Shown here: piece after piece, positions 3,812 to 63,994 of the stretch
Layout: the number at the start of each line of letters is the position of its first letter
Numbering within the stretch: the first letter of the stretch is position 1
NCBI GenBank assembly: GCA_029717555.1
Contig: JAMDHS010000066.1
Span: 55,351-119,350 of the forward strand
Source of the DNA: Peribolospora baueri
Lineage: Eukaryota > Basidiomycota > Peribolosporomycetes > Peribolosporales > Peribolosporaceae
Direction of reading: 5' to 3'
DNA length: 64,000 nt
Notes under the pieces: model-generated
What the model saw: only the letters and a program-made list of their open reading frames with translations
Told to the model about the DNA's origin: nothing
Databases searched by the model: none
Program-made: the position numbers and the translations under genes

Positions 3812-5683
3812 TCAGCGGCGTACGAAGGGCAACACGATACGGTTGAGATACTGTGGGCCGAAATGGAGCTTGTTGACGCAGCCCAGCTTGGCCGCGTTCC
3901 TGTCCGCCGGGTCGTCGTGTCGCCAGAAGCCGTTATGGCACGTGTCCTTGGGCGCGATCTCAAAGGAGAGCCGTGAGCCCTTGTCGACGACGACGTTGGT
4001 GGGCCAGATCTCGACGACCAATTCGTACACCTTGCCTGGCTGTAGGAGTTCCGCATCCGCTCTCTTGTAGTCGCGCCGGGGCTGGTAGGGCTTGTGAAAC
4101 GGGTGCCGGTCATTGATCTTTCGTAGCGAAGCACGCAGCCAGCCCTTCGCCACCACAATTGCTCCGCCGTTGCTGCCCGTATAAACGATCTCCTCGCCGT
4201 TCGCGTCGAGATGGTGCACGCTGACAAACACGTCCAGGTCCTTGGGCTCCGACGCTTCGAGAGACATGTACAGCGTCGCCACCGGGTGGCCGGTGAATTC
4301 AGTCGCTTCGGCGAACGGCTCGGTGACGAAGTAGATCGACTCGCCCGTCAGACCTTCGTATTCCATCGTGCCTTGCCCGTCGGACGGCCTGAGCGACAAA
4401 CTCCTGTCGGCGTTGAGGTAGTACGGCATGTGCTCCGTTCCCGGCAACGGCCAGGCTGTTTCGGTGCGTGTGGGCATGGCCTGCTCCGCCTCTTCGTTGT
4501 CTACGCCGGGGTTTCCCCTGCGCACGACCATGTCAATCGCGGGTACGTCCACGTTCGGACCTTTGAGCCAGCCGCGGTCGTCCTCACCCTTGAGGAAGGC
4601 GTTCAGGAAGGACAGCTGAAGCGCGGCAGCTTCGGTTCGGTAATAAGGGAGGTCATGCCTTCCGGTTACGAAGAAGAGCCACTTGTTCTTGGAGGCGGCG
4701 TACATGTAGGCCGTCACGTTGCCCCGGAGGTGGAGAGCGTATGCGCCCCAGTTGGCAACGCTCAGAAGAGGCACCTCGATCTTGGACGGATCGCAGGAGC
4801 TGTCGACAAAGAATTCGTCGTCGTCGTGTGACTGCTCGCGAAGGGTGAGCACGAAGTCATGGTGGTTTTGCCGCAACTGCTCCTCGGACAGGTCGCCGTC
4901 GATCGAGTCAGGACCCCATTTCCTGTCCGCCTTACCCGGCAAACCGTACTGGTTTGAAGTGACCTGCCTGGGGTACCAGAACTCGAGGAAGCCATTGGAA
5001 AGGATACCACCGTGACGAAAAGCGTTATAGTTGTCCAACGCTCCCTCCCAGGGCACGATGGCGGCCAAGCCCCTAGGCCGGAGCGCGGCGACACGCCACT
5101 GTACCACTGCGTAGTACGATACGCCGGTGAGGCCGACCTTGCCCGTAGACCATGGCTGATCGGCCGCCCATTCGACGCAGTCGGCAAAGTCGCGCGCCGT
5201 CGTACCGCTGAGAATGTCCATCCGTCCCGGGCTCTGGCCCGTCCCCCTCTCGTCTACGCGCACAACCACAAAACCGCGGGAGACCCAGTAAGGGGGGAAG
5301 GGCACCTCCCACGCCGCTTCCGGCCCCTTATGCTCCGGGTTGAGCTCGGCGTAGGACTTTGGATGGAAGTCGCTATAGGGGATGTCCTTTCCGTAGGGGC
5401 CGGACGTCATGAGGACGGGATACCGCGCCTTTCCGCCGCTGTCGCCCACATTGTTCTTGCTGTTCGCCGAGGCGAGCGTGTCGAGCGGGCGATAGACGTT
5501 GCAGCGGCACAATCCGCCGTCGCGAAGAGGAATGTCAGCGTTGTACTCGACGATGTAGGTGCCGTCGTGGGATGGCTTGATGGTCTGGATTGAGTTGGGA
5601 GGCGGCATGACGGAGAGCGTTTTTTTGGAAAAAGCGATGGGTTGCCTGGAAGCAGAGGGGAGGGGGGGTTGGGGGCCAGACAT
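3812..5683 (-). CDS. CocE/NonD-family alpha/beta hydrolase (X-Pro dipeptidyl-peptidase-like)
   Basis: Intronless 623-residue protein. It has an alpha/beta-hydrolase N-half with the oxyanion-side motif DERGTGQSPG (about residues 144-153), a nucleophile elbow GVSYYA (Ser about 189), and a GRHDLPYY segment that probably supplies the catalytic His. The C-half is the jelly-roll X-Pro dipeptidyl-peptidase C-terminal domain. Relatives include bacterial cocaine esterase and many fungal acylases or peptidases of unknown substrate. No signal peptide is obvious. A second Met at about residue 26 (MPPPNSIQTIK) is an equally good start, because the first 25 residues are low complexity. The gene converges on AP-3 delta with about 260 bp between stops. 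Substrate cannot be deduced. Confidence 0.85.
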   Translation of the reverse strand: MSGPQPPLPSASRQPIAFSKKTLSVMPPPNSIQTIKPSHDGTYIVEYNADIPLRDGGLCRCNVYRPLDTLASANSKNNVGDSGGKARYPVLMTSGPYGKDIPYSDFHPKSYAELNPEHKGPEAAWEVPFPPYWVSRGFVVVRVDERGTGQSPGRMDILSGTTARDFADCVEWAADQPWSTGKVGLTGVSYYAVVQWRVAALRPRGLAAIVPWEGALDNYNAFRHGGILSNGFLEFWYPRQVTSNQYGLPGKADRKWGPDSIDGDLSEEQLRQNHHDFVLTLREQSHDDDEFFVDSSCDPSKIEVPLLSVANWGAYALHLRGNVTAYMYAASKNKWLFFVTGRHDLPYYRTEAAALQLSFLNAFLKGEDDRGWLKGPNVDVPAIDMVVRRGNPGVDNEEAEQAMPTRTETAWPLPGTEHMPYYLNADRSLSLRPSDGQGTMEYEGLTGESIYFVTEPFAEATEFTGHPVATLYMSLEASEPKDLDVFVSVHHLDANGEEIVYTGSNGGAIVVAKGWLRASLRKINDRHPFHKPYQPRRDYKRADAELLQPGKVYELVVEIWPTNVVVDKGSRLSFEIAPKDTCHNGFWRHDDPADRNAAKLGCVNKLHFGPQYLNRIVLPFVRR

Positions 5684-6460
5684 TATAAAGTTTCCAATCT
5701 CACCGAGGCTCGTCGACCCCCACCCCCACTTGCTTCGTCAATTTTTACCGAGTCCCACCCAACGCCCTTGACAATAGGCTGGTTCGCGCTGATCATTTAA
5801 CATTCACATGTTGGGGGACGGCCCGTGCAGCGGCCCCGGTACCGTTCACTGAGCCAGTCGATGCCGAGATTTTTCTCGGCACAGGTTCTCCAAGAGCACC
5901 CTCCGTACCGCAGACAGGACGTCGACACGTTATCACGGTTAAGGGGATGGGGTGCCCAGCAGACAGAAGATAAACGGTGGGGAAGATATGATGACAGATA
6001 AAATCGGCGATCTCATCCGATCACGTGATAACGAGACATTCAAGGCCGCATCAATCCTGGTGACATGAACTGAATTTTGCACAGACCGAAAGTAGAGGCA
6101 TCTCGATTCGTAGTCGACAAGAAGGAAACCATCGGATTGTAGACAAGCAGTGGACAAGGCAGGCAGGTGTCGCGAAATTGGGCGAAAAATGGAGAGGGAA
6201 GAGCAGGAGGATTGGGGGAACAGACCGGTCAATCTTGACGGGCCAGCAGAGTAAAGGGAGGGGAGGGGGGAAAGATTGGCGAGCTTGGACGCAAGCGGCG
6301 AGAATAAGGACGGTTTTTCTTCTCCTTTCCAATGAGGGATTGGCAAAGCGAATCTCCTCTCTCCCCATCTTCATGAAAACGACCCTCAACTGGCAAGCCA
6401 GATCCACGCGCCCACCAGCCTGTATTCGGTCTAAGAGGCCGAGGACTAGCCCAGAGACGT
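5684..6460. promoter_or_regulatory. Intergenic: promoter of the CocE-like gene and 3' side of the phosphate carrier
   Basis: No convincing coding sequence on either strand. The segment holds the upstream region of the minus-strand hydrolase (ATG at 5683) and the 3' flank of the minus-strand phosphate carrier (stop at 6461). A perfect palindrome TCACGTGA, centred on a CACGTG E-box at 6022-6027, is a candidate bHLH (Cbf1/USF-type) site; this is inference from the motif alone. Confidence 0.4.
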
Positions 6461-26561: not shown

Positions 26562-27329
26562 ATGAAGGCGCCGACTCTCCTCATTCGCCCCTTCGACGAC
26601 GATGCTCACGCCTCTTCTCTTCTCTGTTCTGCTTTGCTCCACTTTCGTCCTTCTCCCCCAGGTCGACGCTCACGCCCCTTCTCTTCTCTGTTCTGCTCTG
26701 CTCCACTTTCGTCCTTCTCCCCCAGGTCGACGCTCATGCCCCTTCTCTTCTCTGTTCTGCTCTGATTCACTTTCTTCCTTCTCCTCCCAGGTCGCCGCCA
26801 TCATCGCTCTCGTCGCAACCGCCGTCGGGCATCCCAAGCGCAGCGAGACCGATACCGGCACCTTTGTCAAACGCCAGGGAGATCAGTCCGGTCAGTGCAA
26901 GAACGAAATTTGCTATGGACATGGATATGTCTCGTAGCCGCTCGTCATGACCCGTCTCATCTCGGCAACGCCAATGATTTCTGAAGGGCCTGGCATCACA
27001 GATCCTCCTGTCTTACGACAATTCCAGTCGTGGCTGAAGCGGAGGCGGAGAAGGGAAGGCCTTTCACCGCCTCGTCATCGGCGCTAAGGGACGATGCGGC
27101 AACGGAGTTGTGATGCTTTTCGAAAGGATCGGTTTCAAGCCGTGAGTGTTAGCCGTCGTCGCAATGGCCTCGTATTCGGACATCCGCCCAACGGGGAGGC
27201 ACATGCTTACCAACTTCTTCCTTTGGTCGGATCATAGCAAGAACATTGTTCAGTGGGACATTGCCGAGACGCGCGCCAAGCCAGGACCGTATCAGGAGAT
27301 CATCGATGGTGCGTCTCCCTGCCCCTAAA
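26562..27329 (+). pseudogene. Putative small secreted, Kex2-processed protein locus, probably broken
   Basis: After a CT-rich promoter an ATG at 26562 opens MKAPTLLI. Downstream of the tandem repeat a coding-like segment reads VAAIIALVATAVGHPKRSET, then DTGTFVKRQGDQSGQCKNEI and CYGHGY. This looks like a signal-peptide core followed by two Lys-Arg (Kex2-type) sites and a Cys-containing peptide. Another protein-like stretch, ILLSYDNSSRG, then an in-frame TGA at about 27034, then SGGGEGKAFHRLVIGAKGRC and GNGVVMLFERIGFKP, precedes a gtgagt donor at about 27141. A last piece reads NIVQWDIAETRAKPGPYQEI. I recognise no family. The in-frame stop and the lost 3' end (the gene runs into AT-rich DNA) suggest decay, though an unrecognised intron could remove the stop. 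Confidence 0.35.
26597..26790. repeat. 64-bp tandem repeat, three copies, each ending in a 3' splice-site-like tract
   Basis: Units start near 26597, 26662 and 26726 and run to 26790 (64, 64 and 65 bp). Each begins GTCGACGCTCACGCC or a close variant and ends CACTTTCGTCCTTCTCCCCCAG or close to it. Copies differ at a few positions only (the first unit is most diverged at its 5' end), so the duplication is recent. Each polypyrimidine-CAG end is a plausible acceptor, and the last one directly precedes the signal-peptide-like VAAIIALVATAV. Confidence 0.8.
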
Positions 27330-30354: not shown

Positions 30355-30706
30355 GGTCTATGAAATCCCTTGTTGAGATTCGAACCTGCGTCGGGGGGGG
30401 GGGGATGTAGCGGCACGTGGGAAGGGCACGTGACTCCGATCATCTCCAGCGCGTTGTTTGCGTTCGTCTCTGGGTATGACGACGACGACCACCAACCCCA
30501 CCAGACCTCGTGCTAGAATCTAGCAGGCTGACATCGTCCATCGGCGTCGACATAGCGGCTGGGGTAGCGTTACCGGTAACGTCACCGGACGTAGCCTTCT
30601 AATTCTAATAGTGACGTCTTCCGTCAGGTAGTGTGGTGGGCCGAACGATGCAACGGACGGAACGTGGCTTCTACTCTCTATAAGTAGCAATCCATCACGT
30701 CGGTCC
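30355..30706. promoter_or_regulatory. Divergent promoter, SAS4-like / TAF2
   Basis: Shared upstream region of two transcription-related genes. It contains a poly-G run (about 30393-30404), two CACGTG E-boxes (30414-30419 and 30427-30432), and a TATA-box-like TATAAGTA at 30679-30686 that is correctly placed for the TAF2 side. Confidence 0.5.
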
Positions 30707-39965: not shown

Positions 39966-40778
39966 ATGAGCCCAGAGCTTCTTACCCTAGTCAGCAAGTC
40001 AAGGAACTCAAGTGCCAACATGTCGACTCAAAACGAGGAGAAGGACACCAAGTGGCAGACGAGGATGGAAAGGAAGCTGAAGAGCGCTACGGGCGTGAAA
40101 AACGGATTCCTTCAGACGGTACCAACGTTGACGGAGTCGAACTATACACAATGGGCAGCAAGCATCATATGGGTACTGCAAGGCGCTGGGCTTTGGTTTT
40201 TAGTAGACCCAGACGGCCCGGAAGTCGACATCCACAAGATCGTTGAGAAGTACGCTGAAGAAAAAGAACGGGAGGATCGAACAGACCAGTGCGAGCGAGT
40301 CCCTCCTACAAGCGCAGACTGTAATAATGGCGACGGTGGAAGCCTCTCAGGACGGACATATGCAAGAACCAGCTCTCCAGTGAGTTAAGGGCGCCTAGGC
40401 ACGATGGAAGGGAGTCAAATGCAAAATTTCTTCAATCGCGTGACCGGACTCTACAAGGAGTTCAAGGCCATCGATGGTAACATGACCAACGATGAATTTG
40501 TCTATTTGCTCTTTGACGTGATGCCGAAGGGATTCGAGCTCGCAATACAATCCTGGGAGGCGCACGCGATTTCCATTGGCTCGCCAACACCGGATGAAGT
40601 AATTGGGACTTGCATCGAGATCGACAGACGACGAAGGGCAGGCAAGACGTCAAGCCCAGCTGTTGGCATCGAAGCCGCCATGGTCGCCTCGGAGCCAAGC
40701 AAAAGAAACAAGAAGGCCAAGTTCAAGGGCAAGTGTCACCACTGCGGGAAGATGGGACACAAGATGGCCGATTGTTGA
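39966..40778 (+). pseudogene. copia Gag with CCHC zinc knuckle (frameshifted)
   Basis: The first open part contains TVPTLTESNYTQWAASIIWV and LQGAGLWFLVDPDGPEVDIH, the typical copia Gag (UBN2/DUF4219-like) start. After stops near 40388 the frame changes and resumes with FFNRVTGLYKEFKAIDGNMT, ending in the nucleocapsid knuckle CHHCGKMGHKMADC and a stop at 40776-40778. At least one frameshift breaks the protein. Confidence 0.75.
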
Positions 40779-40800
40779 AAGAGAAATGGCGAAAAGGATA

Positions 40801-41420
40801 CGAAGGATAAGGCTCAAATCGCTTATTATCCGGTTATCGCCGCCCGCTCTAAGCTTCAGTGGGACGGAGACACCCAGAAGGACGACTGGGTTCTCGACAG
40901 CGGCGCCACCAGGCACATAGCGAACGGCATGCGCTGGTTCGGGCGGTACCAAGTGTTTGGGGTTGCACGCCGAGTTACTGTCGGCAACGATGCAACACTT
41001 GTGGTTCCAGGCTCGGGAAAAGGTCACTTCACCTTTCCCGATGGGCGCTCAGGGACGACCAGCAATGTGCTATACGTACCAGGGCTGGTTCCCAACCTCA
41101 TCTCGGTTCGCCAGCTCGAAGCGCGGCTTTGTCGTTGAGGCGCGGGTTGACGTCATCAAAATCAAGACCAAGGGAGAGAAGAAAGCCTTTCCTGTACGTG
41201 CCCAAGGAGAGCAGTACAAATTGGGCTTCAGGCCTTCAGATGGCAATCGCCCCGAGAAAGCCCTCGATGCTCAAGAGTCGGTCGAGACTGGACCGATTCA
41301 GGCCGAGAGTAATTCCGACGGGAGCGATACCAGCACCGACACCGAGGATGCGGATGAACAGCGCCCCGCAGAGGCGCAGAACGGCTATGCTCTCAAGGTC
41401 CTCCGATCTGATAGTGGGAG
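40801..41420 (+). pseudogene. copia protease and integrase fragments (frameshifted)
   Basis: One frame gives the aspartic-protease region WVLDSGATRHIANGMRWFG, then VTVGNDATLVVPGSGKGHF and NVLYVPGLVPNLISVRQLE. A shift near 41115 moves the sequence into another frame, which continues SKRGFVVEARVDVIKIKTKG and ends in the integrase-core motif ALKVLRSDSG at about 41395-41420. The zinc-binding and most of the catalytic core of integrase are absent. Confidence 0.65.
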
Positions 41421-42240
41421 TGTTGGAAAGGTCAAGGATCACCGTGGGACGATGGGAACGCCTCAGGGAGACCAGAGTTCGGTGGGAACCCCCAGGATGG
41501 ATCAGGGTCCTGTAGCGACACCTGAGAACAGCCATGGATGGGTGGGAGCGCCTGATGAGGATCGGCCGGCATTGCCCGAGGAAGGCAACGAGCCGGCGCC
41601 CGCGGCCGAGAACGAAGTCTCTGCGGCCGAGAATGAGGCACAAAAGGCGAACCAACTATGGAGGAACTTAGGCGCGCGGCGACCCTTCACGAGCGGAAGT
41701 TGGCGGAGCACGAGGAGAGCATTGAACGTGTGCGACAGCAGTCGGCAACAGCGCTTCCCAACTCCAGACCAAGCTCGACGAGGAGTCGCACAACCGAACA
41801 GCCGCTGCCCTTGCCGTCTTCGCGCCCAGCTCGATTCGGAGTCACAGAAGCTTACCGCGACGGCGCTCGCCGGGCTTCAGCTCAAGGTAGAGACGGAGTG
41901 GCAGGTGCGGCCGGATGAGCTTAAGACACGGCTGCAAGCGGAGTCGTGGAGAGCGAGCGAGCTTCAGGCCAGGCTCGATGCGGAATCTCGGGACGGGGAG
42001 GTGGCGAAACGGGAGGCCCGGCGGCTCGAGGATGAGGTGGCCAAGGTGGATCAGCGGACCGCGGGGGCGAACCGACAGTTGGACGCACTTAGGGCAGACA
42101 TGGCTCAAGACGAGCGGCAGGAAGAAGGTGATGGAGAATGAGGCAGATCTGCGGCGCGTCAAGGAACGAGCCTCCGTTTTCCGGGCCGAGCTGCAGGCGC
42201 AGCTGGACGCCGAATCTCAGAAGCGTACGGCGACGGCACT
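41420..42240 (+). other. Non-copia insert: 10-residue repeats plus coiled-coil coding
   Basis: Between the integrase and reverse-transcriptase remnants lies sequence unlike any copia domain. It first gives four degenerate 10-residue repeats (MGTPQGDQSS, VGTPRMDQGP, VATPENSHGW, VGAPDEDRPA), then charged helix-forming text rich in Glu, Ala, Gln and Arg (ELQARLDAESRDGEVAKREA and related). A block matching QLDSESQKLTATALAGLQLK near 41830 recurs as QLDAESQKRTATALAELQRK near 42200, so part of it is internally duplicated. The origin is unknown; capture of a host coiled-coil gene fragment is one explanation. Confidence 0.55.
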
Positions 42241-42910
42241 GGCGGAGCTGCAGCGCAAGGCGAGGCGAAGTGGATTCTGGGCATCGAGGTCATCCGTAAC
42301 TTGCCCGGCATTTTTCTCTGTCAGAAGTCGTACATCGAACGGCGGATTTTCGAGCGTTTCGGCATGCTTCAAGCGAACACTGTCAACACGCCCATGGAAG
42401 TAGGACTGCAACTTCGGAAGCGACAAGACGAAGAAGCCGCTTCGAAGGAAGAGTACCAGCGAGCGGTCGGATCAATAATGTACCTGATGCTCTGCACACG
42501 ACCAGACCTGGCGTTTGCAGTCAGCAAGCTCTCTCAGTACAGCTCGGATCCAAGCTCGACGCACTGGAGGGCGGCCAAGCGGGTAATTCGCTACGTCAAA
42601 GCAACTGCGGGTTATAAGCTGAAGTTTGAAGCTGGGATCGATGGCAACGACGACTCCCAGATCAACGCTGGTTTTGAAGCAGATGAGGTGAAGGTGGTCG
42701 GTTACAGCGACGCCGACTACGCAAACTCTGGATACGAGGCGCTCAGTTGCAGGCTTCGTCTTCAGCCTGGGAAGTGGCTCTGTCACCTGGAGTAGCAAGC
42801 GCCAGAGCACAGTTGCACCATCGACTGTTGAGGCCGAATACGTCGCAGCCTCAATTGCAAGTCGCGAGGGAGTCTGGCTCAAGCGTCTCCTCGATGGGCT
42901 CGGAGTTGAG

Positions 42911-48939: not shown

Positions 48940-51495
48940 TCAGCCATTGTTGGAGGTCGTGGTCGTGGTCGTGGTCGTGGCCGCGGACGCGGCCTTCTGT
49001 CCAGCCGAAGAGAGTGCCGACACCTTAGACGAATCAATTGTCTTTAAGCCAAGTTTGGAGAGGTCCGCGTTGACCTCGTCCAGGTTGTCGATAAACTTGG
49101 CGCGGAGAGGATCCCTACGGGGCATAGTGGAAAGCGAAGGCTGGAGGTGAGAGGCTGGCGTTCGTATACATGAGCAACAAGGCCCAAACTCACCACATGC
49201 TGGGCTCGTGCTCGTGCTTCAGAGGCGTCTTCATCGCGAAGTCGGTCAAAGTAAACATCCTCGAGCTCTCAAACATGAAAGCGACCGTGGAAAATGAACG
49301 AGTAGGACGGTATCACAATGGTCAGCAGGAAGCCAGATTCGCATGTCCGATATCCAGGGGGGGGGGGGCGCTGAGGAGCCAGCTTACTCGGTTGAAGGTC
49401 CATGTTGCTGGCAGCGTCGAACTGCTCATAGTCGACACCGTGCGGAGTGAAGCCTGCATAACGAATGGTCCGAGGTGATGAGAAAACACGATCCTGCGCA
49501 AAGTTGCAATTAAGCATACAAAGCTCACCGCATTCATAAGAGGCGCCTCCAGGGAGAAAATCGTCACTTCGCCCCGGGTATTCGCCTTTGGAAGAGTGAG
49601 GATTTATCGGTAAAGGAGCACGCAAATGATTACGGACGCGAGGGGGAACTGACGGCATCGCTGCTCACCATAGAGGAGACCCATGAACTCTGAGGCGCAA
49701 TTCCTGCAGAGTCACCGCGACGCAGAACATGAGCCCAGTATACAGATGATCATGTCCCACGATGCCCACCAACTGTGGGAAGCTCTGGAGCTGCACTCAG
49801 GAACAGTGAGTATTTTCGTGATTATCTCGATCTCCTTCATGACAAAGCCGGCTGATCCATACCTTCGCTCACCTTCCAGCTCGCCGTTCGACGTCGTTGC
49901 CTGTGAGTTTCAGAAAAGTCCTGCTTTGCTTTCCAATATCTAGTCGAGTGCTTATGCACTTCCACACCCCTTTCTACCATTGCTTCTTTCTAGATCATGG
50001 CAATTATGTTCCCGTAAAATACAATCTTGAGAAATTCATCAAGTTAGAAGACTCGTCGCCAATGTCTACAGACGTGTCCGCAAAGCTGACCCCAAACCTT
50101 GTCTTGTCCCTTCTAGCGTCGGGTCCATCTCCAAGGACCATATCGGTAGGTTAAGCCATCCCGGAGATCGGCGACAGTATGCGGGTAAACTGACACCGAT
50201 CTACCTTTTTATCTTTTGGCCTCAGATCCCTCCATCTTCTGCGTGCTCACCGTCCGCTCTCCTGAGGAAGGTACACCTCTGGCCGACTTTCTTATCTTTT
50301 CTCCGCGATGGGACGTCGCGACTGGCACGTTCCGACCCCCTTACTTTCACAGGTGCGCCGTCCTGGGCGACATCGAAGCAAGCGACGGGGGACCTGAAGT
50401 CGCGAGAGTTCGCGAGGCCATTTCCGCCAACTGTTGCGAGTTGGATCACCGTCAGGATCGGCCACCAGAATACTACCGTACTGTTGTGAAGTACACCTGC
50501 AGCATGGAACACTCACGGGGTCCCAGTTCAGGAAGCTCATAGTGAGCACCATATACTTCCTGAATGTATCCGCGTGAAGGGCCGTCGGGAAGCTTGACCG
50601 ACCAGCGAATTCCCTGAACATATGCAGAAACCGCGGACCAAAGTCGACATTCCGACGGCAACTGGGAACACCCTGAAAAATTCCCTCGATACATACCCTC
50701 TGAATAACACACTCTCCGGGCCTTGTAAGAGACGTAGAACAAAAAAGAGCGATCTATAAGTCTTTGGGCCCTTGCACTGGACTGGAAGAGACTAGATATT
50801 GGCCCCACCTGACCATCATCTTGCCCATTTCAGTCCGAATATCAAGCTTGCCTTGTTGAGGCACAATGAGCATGTCTCCGTCATTGGACACGAAGGCCCT
50901 AAAAGGAAAGGTGAACGACTCAGGTGCCAGAAACTTGTCGAGCGCTCGACGAGGCGCTCACCTGTTCTCCATGCTCTTGTTACCCGTGTACACGTGGATG
51001 GCGAGACCAGACTTGAGAGTCGGGTCACCGTTTCCAGCAACTAGAAAAGGTGCGGAGGTGCCGGAGGTGTCAATGGAAGGGAACGCGGCTTGTCGGTTCA
51101 AGAGGACCGAAACGAGACTCACTCGTCTTTAGACCGTCGACGAAATCGACCTGCTCGCCATCTTTAGGCAGTTCGAAGGGTCTCCAAGCGAATTGCGTCG
51201 GGCTGATGTGAACTTTGGGGTTCAGTCCGGGGAAGAAGTTGGACTCGAGGTTGGGGTTATCTGGCAGAGGCGTAAATCCTTGATGGGCGACGGCGGGGCG
51301 GATGCGATAAAGCCAGGTGCGTTGGTCGTGGAAAAAGGTTGGCAACCTCAGATGAGCACGGGCCTCGCTCGCGGAGACGACACTATGTCGCGTACGAAAT
51401 CGAAATGCCAGTCACTCACAGATGTAGGGATCCTCGAGGTAATCTCCCTTGACGTGGTAGCCCGTCTGGGCAGTGTAGGAGGCGGCCGCAAGCAT
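48940..51495 (-). pseudogene. HGD: Homogentisate 1,2-dioxygenase locus disrupted by an internal inversion
   Basis: Enzyme opening the homogentisate ring in tyrosine and phenylalanine breakdown. Minus-strand exons give [134 protein letters not shown] and [20 protein letters not shown]. The next part of the protein is on the PLUS strand (see the inverted segment). Minus-strand coding then resumes with NCASEFMGLLYG, EYPGRSDDFLPGGASYEC, TPHGVDYEQFDAASNMDL, MFESSRMFTLTDFAMKTPLK and a tail to 48940. The iron-ligand Glu (SEFMG) and His (TPHG) are on minus, the other His (PYFHR) on plus. The conserved block between the start and QRTWLYRI (normally about 40 residues) was also not found. As assembled it cannot give a normal enzyme. 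Confidence 0.85.
49755..50355 (+). other. Inverted central segment of homogentisate dioxygenase
   Basis: On the plus strand three HGD exons read in the family's normal order: PTNCGKLWSCTQEH spliced to SPFDVVA; then HGNYVPVKYNLEKFI; then [36 protein letters not shown] and RPPYFHR, ending at a gtgcgc donor at 50353. These belong exactly between [12 protein letters not shown] and NCASEFMG of the minus-strand parts. The left edge is near 49750-49765, inside or beside an intron, and the right edge near 50350-50362, inside the exon encoding FDVAQD. The edges share short inverted similarity (ATGTC-CCCA). Exact breakpoints are not resolvable by eye. Confidence 0.85.
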
Positions 51496-52125
51496 TTTCG
51501 CTAACGAGACGGAAGAGTGGGGTGAGTAAAGGACGTCCACTACCCCTCGTCAGGCCTGGCCGGCGGGCTGCTTTAAAGACCACCGTCGGACGGTGGCAGG
51601 TGGAGCTCAATAGAGAAGAACGCCGTGCCAGCCGTGGAATCGCGGAGACTACGAAGGCGGGGAGGCGGAAGCCACGGTCGGCACGGAAAGGCGTAGCGTG
51701 CGCCATGGCTGGTTTGCGTCGGGAATCGATTAGCCGTAGCTGAGGCGAGAATAGAACAGGACAGCGAAGGCGGACTCCGCTTTATCCGCGACACGCGATC
51801 GGCGGTACGCGCCTTTCACTGATCACCGACCGGAAATCGCGGAAACGTCCTTGCAAGCCCGCTCTCGGGAATAAGTACATCGACGCGACTCTGTTATTTT
51901 ACAGTAGCCTTCCACTGCAAGAAGGAATCCAGGTCTAATACCACCGACCAGACGTGGAAGGGGCGCCATACGTGGTGGGCCTGGGAAACAGTCGGGCTCA
52001 AAGACGGCGATCGTGTTCGTCTCTATGGATCGTATGTTGGCGACCTAATGCAGTGAAGGCAGGCCAAGAAGGGTATCCCTGGGTACGTTTCATTCCGGGA
52101 ACAGCGTCGGAACGACTGACGAGGC
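51496..52125. promoter_or_regulatory. Upstream region of HGD; 3' flank of IST1
   Basis: No supportable gene. It contains the upstream side of the minus-strand HGD locus. An ORF starting MAHATPFRADRGFRLPAFVV on the minus strand overlaps the HGD first exon in another frame and is treated as shadow. Confidence 0.35.
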
Positions 52126-63920: not shown

Positions 63921-63957
63921 CTGAGAGGGACGGAGAATCGATCAGCATCACGTCTTT

Positions 63958-63959
<2 letters not shown>

Positions 63960-63994
<35 letters not shown>
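63960..63994. repeat. 35-nt poly-T run at the window edge
   Basis: Uninterrupted T run, preceded by a T/C-rich stretch, inside what should be an intron (or the upstream region) of the minus-strand propeller gene. Long homopolymers of this kind are prone to sequencing and assembly error. Confidence 0.9.

Follow-up and report, generated by a model that had tools for sequence, protein, structure and literature searches.

Exons of a homogentisate dioxygenase (HGD) gene lie on both strands of a contig of the basidiomycete Peribolospora baueri. Has the gene been broken in the fungus, could it still work, or was its sequence put together wrongly? The window analyzed here, the whole stretch of 64,000 nucleotides, corresponds to positions 55351-119350 of its contig, in an assembly of 22,138,560 bases and 178 contigs.

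An inverted segment inside the HGD gene

The original prediction placed an inversion of about 0.6 kb inside the HGD gene. Homology detected by tblastn and with PF04209 bears this out and corrects the extent of the segment to 49777 to about 50355. The features of the locus, from the start of the gene to its end, are as follows.

51420-51495, minus strand: exon 1 (MLAAASYTAQTGYHVKGDYLEDPYI), ending in DPYI, of which DPY matches the family start; a GTGAGT donor follows
51331-51419, minus strand: gap of 89 bases in place of family positions 21-68 (YQVGFGN to about AFVAPR), with no AG acceptor before HDQRTWLYR
50357-51330, minus strand: exons for positions ~69-259 (HDQRTWLYR to FDVAQDG), with five GT-AG introns
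50352-50357: right inversion joint, where the last plus-strand exon meets the FDVAQDG exon of the minus strand
49777-50351, plus strand: inverted segment with five exons for positions ~268-353 and four GT-AG introns, GT following immediately after the last exon
49704-49776: left joint region (read by eye), with a minus-strand intron end (ctctgcag) before NCASEFMG; the WEIVYKLM that relatives have before GxLW was not found
49388-49703, minus strand: exons from NCASEFMGLLYG to FDAASNMDLQP, with two GT-AG introns
49289-49387, minus strand: third break, with a run of 12 C (49357-49368), WISD as a weak match and no AG acceptor before TVAFMFESS
48940-49288, minus strand: last exons (TVAFMFESS to the stop), with one GT-AG intron

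Recognized minus-strand exons flank the segment on both sides (51495-50357 and 49703-48940), and their blocks contain eight GT-AG introns of 63-87 nt. The plus-strand exons, whose ends were set from the family alignment, occupy 49777-49805, 49880-49902, 49994-50042, 50117-50145 and 50226-50351. As predicted, they are correctly ordered and their GT-AG introns are intact: all four introns (74, 91, 74 and 80 nt) have these ends and interrupt conserved words, e.g., QEH-SPFDVVA and HI-DPSIF, and the spliced exons are stop-free and open from GKLW to RPPYFH. Within the blocks, 12 of the 13 inter-exon gaps are GT-AG; the thirteenth (51419-51331) is the site of the missing exon. There are zero stops and zero frameshifts in the recognized exons. 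An imperfect hairpin with 18-nt arms, 78% complementary, and a 2-nt loop is located within one of the exons (50527-50564).

PF20510 and PF04209 were both matched at the locus. The match of PF04209 to the reading 50189-50353, which contains the last plus-strand exon, has an E-value of 7.9e-18 and is not due to chance; two further PF04209 or PF20510 readings were obtained. When six HGD relatives were compared with the 48.4-52.0 kb region by tblastn, three blocks emerged along with some chance pieces: positions ~69-259 (51330-50357) and those from 353 to the end read from the minus strand, whereas positions ~268-353 read from the plus strand. One of these relatives (P0038) aligns on the plus strand from position 271, the preceding part being absent from its own model. 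No complete HGD could be read collinearly from N- to C-terminus on one strand: ~268-353 lie on the opposite strand, and 21-68 and two shorter stretches were not found. A collinear minus-strand alignment had been named as one result that would overturn the inversion; the exons are not collinear and the flip stands. Family sequence is recognizable at positions 69-259, ~268-406 and 413 to the end, including the words HGNY, YFHR, SEFMG and TPHG, which we take to hold the iron-ligand residues. On this assignment, the ligand motifs would be divided between the two strands, in agreement with the original prediction.

Joints of the inversion

The right joint lies within 50352-50357 and the left one before 49777. 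Minus-strand positions 49776-49704 resemble the end of an intron; had the segment formerly been reversed, an intron of about 75 nt, matching its neighbors, would have separated YFHR from NCASEF. Neither a repeat nor microhomology marks the joints. Within 40 bases of them, no exact inverted match exceeds 6 nt, a length reached by 199 of 300 random place pairs. Since there is no inverted repeat at the joints, a repeat-driven switch is unlikely, and so is a repeat-driven misassembly.

These observations bear on the possibility of a polymorphic or switching allele, with the segment lying in either orientation between isolates or cells. The inverted segment does keep an open, splice-clean reading, as such an allele would. 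However, the flanking inverted repeats are absent, the assembly shows neither a second copy nor another haplotype, and positions 21-68 are without their exon whichever the orientation. We consider a switching allele very improbable.

Missing stretches and a third break

It had been proposed that flipping the segment would give exactly the family order. This holds for the order of the exons but not for their content. Re-flipping the segment would restore the family order and still not a whole protein, because positions 21-68, about eight residues at a joint and a stretch at the third break are missing or unspliceable. The inversion is not the sole lesion of the locus, and as assembled the locus cannot encode a working HGD.

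Positions 21-68 (about 48 residues), expected after exon 1, were found neither on either strand of the locus by tblastn and profile scans nor in the window by profile scans. A search of the whole assembly with E-values up to 10 retrieved the part that this gene already has (query 66-87, E = 1e-4) and, elsewhere, one match of 27% identity (E = 0.007), but nothing else. A relocated exon was considered and rejected, the scans of the window and locus having produced fragments at chance level, YVVGLGNS at 51969 (E = 0.043) among them. Similarly, nothing resembling the approximately eight residues which follow FDVAQDG and precede GxLW in relatives (WEIVYKLM or similar) turned up on either strand.

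The third break separates DLQP (to 49388) from TVAFMFESS (from 49288), where relatives have a stretch such as GAQWISDG. WISD is present on the minus strand beside the G12/C12 run. It is a weak match, ranking 22nd of 97,694 windows with one profile and 106th of 102,968 with a second; in the profile scan it was slightly outscored by one match in the locus (49096, plus strand). Inspection by eye of 49387-49289 revealed no recognizable AG acceptor or GT-AG intron into TVAFMFESS. A second micro-inversion at 49289-49370, the plus-strand reading of which is loosely family-like before TVAFMFESS, was dropped: the reading is outside the five best locus matches, and the minus-strand WISD is among them.

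The 9-mer TTTTCCACG occurs in the window at just two sites, 51335 and 49294, both on the minus strand. Both are the exact points at which HGD homology resumes after a break, and they look like intron ends without AG. U12-type AT-AC introns for the two TTTTCCAC ends were rejected, the frames being a misfit by eye.

Could the gene nevertheless work through transcripts of both strands joined by trans-splicing? In mod(mdg4) of Drosophila, exons of one protein reportedly lie on both strands and are joined in this way. In favor of this, the splice sites within the inverted segment are intact, and its last exon is followed by a GT. A usable acceptor is lacking, however: by eye, splicing at the nearest AG upstream (49744-49745) would lead into an in-frame TGA at 49747-49749. 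Nor did the assembly search recover the exon for positions 21-68. Trans-splicing of this kind is hardly credible.

Copy number and state of the surviving exons

In the assembly-wide profile search, the single PF04209 match and the four PF20510 exon matches were all at the HGD locus. The 2.7-kb locus matches itself alone, and neither a second copy nor a haplotype was detected in the assembly; the search for a second intact HGD, which had been recommended, yielded none. As assembled, the locus is a disabled gene with no intact copy, i.e., a unitary pseudogene, a status that depends on the assembly being true.

Relatives were collected with a query from which the inverted part was left out. Among the best 120 of 8000 scored, the top-scoring sequence is from Atractiella rhizophila (P0001; 64% identity over 75% of the query), agaric HGDs reach 76% identity over about 60% of the query, and other basidiomycetes, including several Microbotryomycetes, are also present. 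Together with the relatives of an esterase in the window (see below), these make a basidiomycete host secure and a place in the Pucciniomycotina tentative. Seven of the 158 near-invariant family columns are changed in the surviving exons, 1.7 standard deviations (z = 1.7) above the divergence fit over 120 relatives. Among the 27 similarly diverged relatives, four differ at more of these columns and two at as many. Thus, the exons show no clear decay, yet they are not wholly clean. The clean codons had been taken as a sign of a recent event. The lack of stops, frameshifts and clear decay agrees with this, but an artefact would look alike.

An artefact is the main alternative. The organism may have an intact HGD, in which case local misassembly or chimeras of whole-genome amplification flipped one piece of it and dropped others. 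Clean surviving exons would be expected, the three breaks fall within about 2.1 kb, and one of them is beside one of just two G/C runs of at least nine in the window (12 G each, at 49357-49368, the third HGD break, and 30393-30404). If the assembly was made from amplified DNA, it would also be relevant that the layout of the locus, inverted sequence with an intervening deletion, is a known form of amplification chimera. On the other side, the window contains no runs of N, and the 6-nt match at the joints is what is expected of random places. The rest of the assembly and the surrounding pathway also speak against an artefact, as described in the next two sections.

Strand consistency in the rest of the assembly

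The other genes examined keep to one strand. All 44 Cpn60/TCP1 matches are strand-consistent within their loci (10 loci on 10 contigs, one of them with a single match, counted by eye). For Aldedh, 11 of 50 candidates were scored; of the 16 matches, the 9 that share a locus with another (four loci) are all strand-consistent. No Pfam family was found on both strands in seven six-frame blocks covering about 35 of the 64 kb, at E-values up to 0.01, and the neighboring genes, IST1 and BRCA2-like, are in proper reading order. General scrambling of the assembly is therefore unlikely, and as far as tested the damage is local to HGD. That no flip was seen in the other genes counts against an artefact. 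Codon-usage gene finding was too weak to help.

The Pfam neighbors in the window are a mitochondrial-type ribosomal protein L2, Fip1, IST1, a BRCA2-like protein, an RSN1/PHM7 channel-like protein, TAF2 and a bromodomain protein. An X-Pro dipeptidyl-peptidase-like esterase is located at 3824-5710, its best relative being from Exidia glandulosa (54%). Pieces of a Copia-like retrotransposon (gag PF14223, Pol beta-barrel PF22936 and reverse transcriptase PF07727) are found at about 40407-42399 on the plus strand, about 7 kb from HGD. The window also contains a tandem repeat at 26600-26798 (64 bases, 3.1 copies, 93% matches) and a run of 40 T at 63955-63994.

The surrounding tyrosine pathway

In tyrosine breakdown, HPPD acts before HGD and fumarylacetoacetase (FAH) after it. 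The FAH model TIGR01266 had no match in the assembly, and it was above cut-off in 0 of 14 control genomes. PF01557 gave eight matches on four contigs, which by eye look FAHD-like and lack NDWSARDIQ, a word we take to be typical of FAH; compared with solved structures, one of these eight resembles FAHD-type and related enzymes. The only match of a 150-residue FAH query in the assembly was weak (E = 0.02) and at a PF01557 place. The HPPD model TIGR01263, which exceeded its cut-off in 1 of 14 control genomes, likewise had no match in the assembly, and a 119-residue HPPD query, which matches solved HPPDs at 2.9e-54, gave no match there. As a gauge of sensitivity, a comparable HGD query recovered a single exon of the locus (2.2e-13) and missed the rest. 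HPPD and FAH are both probably absent from the assembly, within the limited sensitivity of these searches.

In Aspergillus fumigatus, homogentisate builds up and pyomelanin increases when hmgA is deleted, which hppD deletion prevents (PMC3203155). Accumulation of homogentisate and a pyomelanin-like pigment had been put forward as a consequence of the broken gene. Because such pigment needs the upstream HPPD and none was detected, it is unlikely to be formed here, if the negative results for HPPD and FAH hold.

The pathway also bears on the alternatives. An intact HGD in the organism would stand without detected HPPD and FAH, which argues against an artefact; taking both sides together, we regard an artefact as a substantial possibility, though somewhat less likely than not. 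A natural inversion allele that segregates or recurs, or the joining of transcripts from two strands, would mean an enzyme switched or strand-split in a fungus with tyrosine breakdown otherwise dismantled, and there is little chance of it.

Origin of the lesions

The HGD gene is either recently broken or an assembly error. The reading we prefer, at no better than even odds, is that of a unitary pseudogene broken recently, in a lineage without the surrounding pathway. It is favored by a strand flip with intact internal splicing and further lesions in the same gene, by the single HGD locus, by the failure to find FAH and HPPD and by the lack of flips in other genes. It is weakened by the lack of clear decay and of any stop or frameshift, by the limited sensitivity of the FAH and HPPD searches and by the unmarked joints.

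If the assembled sequence is true to the organism, as we infer, a recent local rearrangement, probably a single event with several joints, would have broken the gene. This event would have turned about 580 bp around, with some 25 bp lost at one of the joints, and would also have deleted the exon that encodes positions 21-68. Candidate routes are end joining and template-switching or break-induced repair. HGD would already have become dispensable, since HPPD and fumarylacetoacetase are probably missing, if the losses took place in that order. After the loss of fumarylacetoacetase, the loss of HGD may even be favored, as work on tyrosinaemia would suggest.

If real, the locus is a snapshot of gene death through local rearrangement preceding point decay, and a lineage seemingly without the steps flanking HGD allows the order in which a catabolic pathway is dismantled to be asked. 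If not, it is a warning that a frame-clean and splice-clean flip in a conserved gene can be an artefact, one that automatic annotation would mask as a truncated gene.

Comparison with known systems

No comparable fungal case was found among the literature matches listed. The HGD locus resembles mod(mdg4) of Drosophila in having exons on both strands, but differs in that it is without a usable acceptor and one exon was not found. The 59 human-chimpanzee microinversions described in PMC8755829 are 17-33 nt long and flanked by inverted repeats, whereas the HGD segment measures about 580 bp and lacks such repeats. Chimeras of multiple displacement amplification share with the locus an inverted sequence with an intervening deletion, a form that accounts for more than 85% of 475 amplification chimeras in PMC1855051; the difference is that no flips were seen in the other genes examined. 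The remaining comparison is with unitary pseudogenes produced by complex local rearrangement, through template switching or microhomology-mediated break-induced replication. The HGD locus differs from these in that no clear point decay is seen, and it is like them in its inversion, in the loss of sequence at a joint and in the clustering of its breaks.
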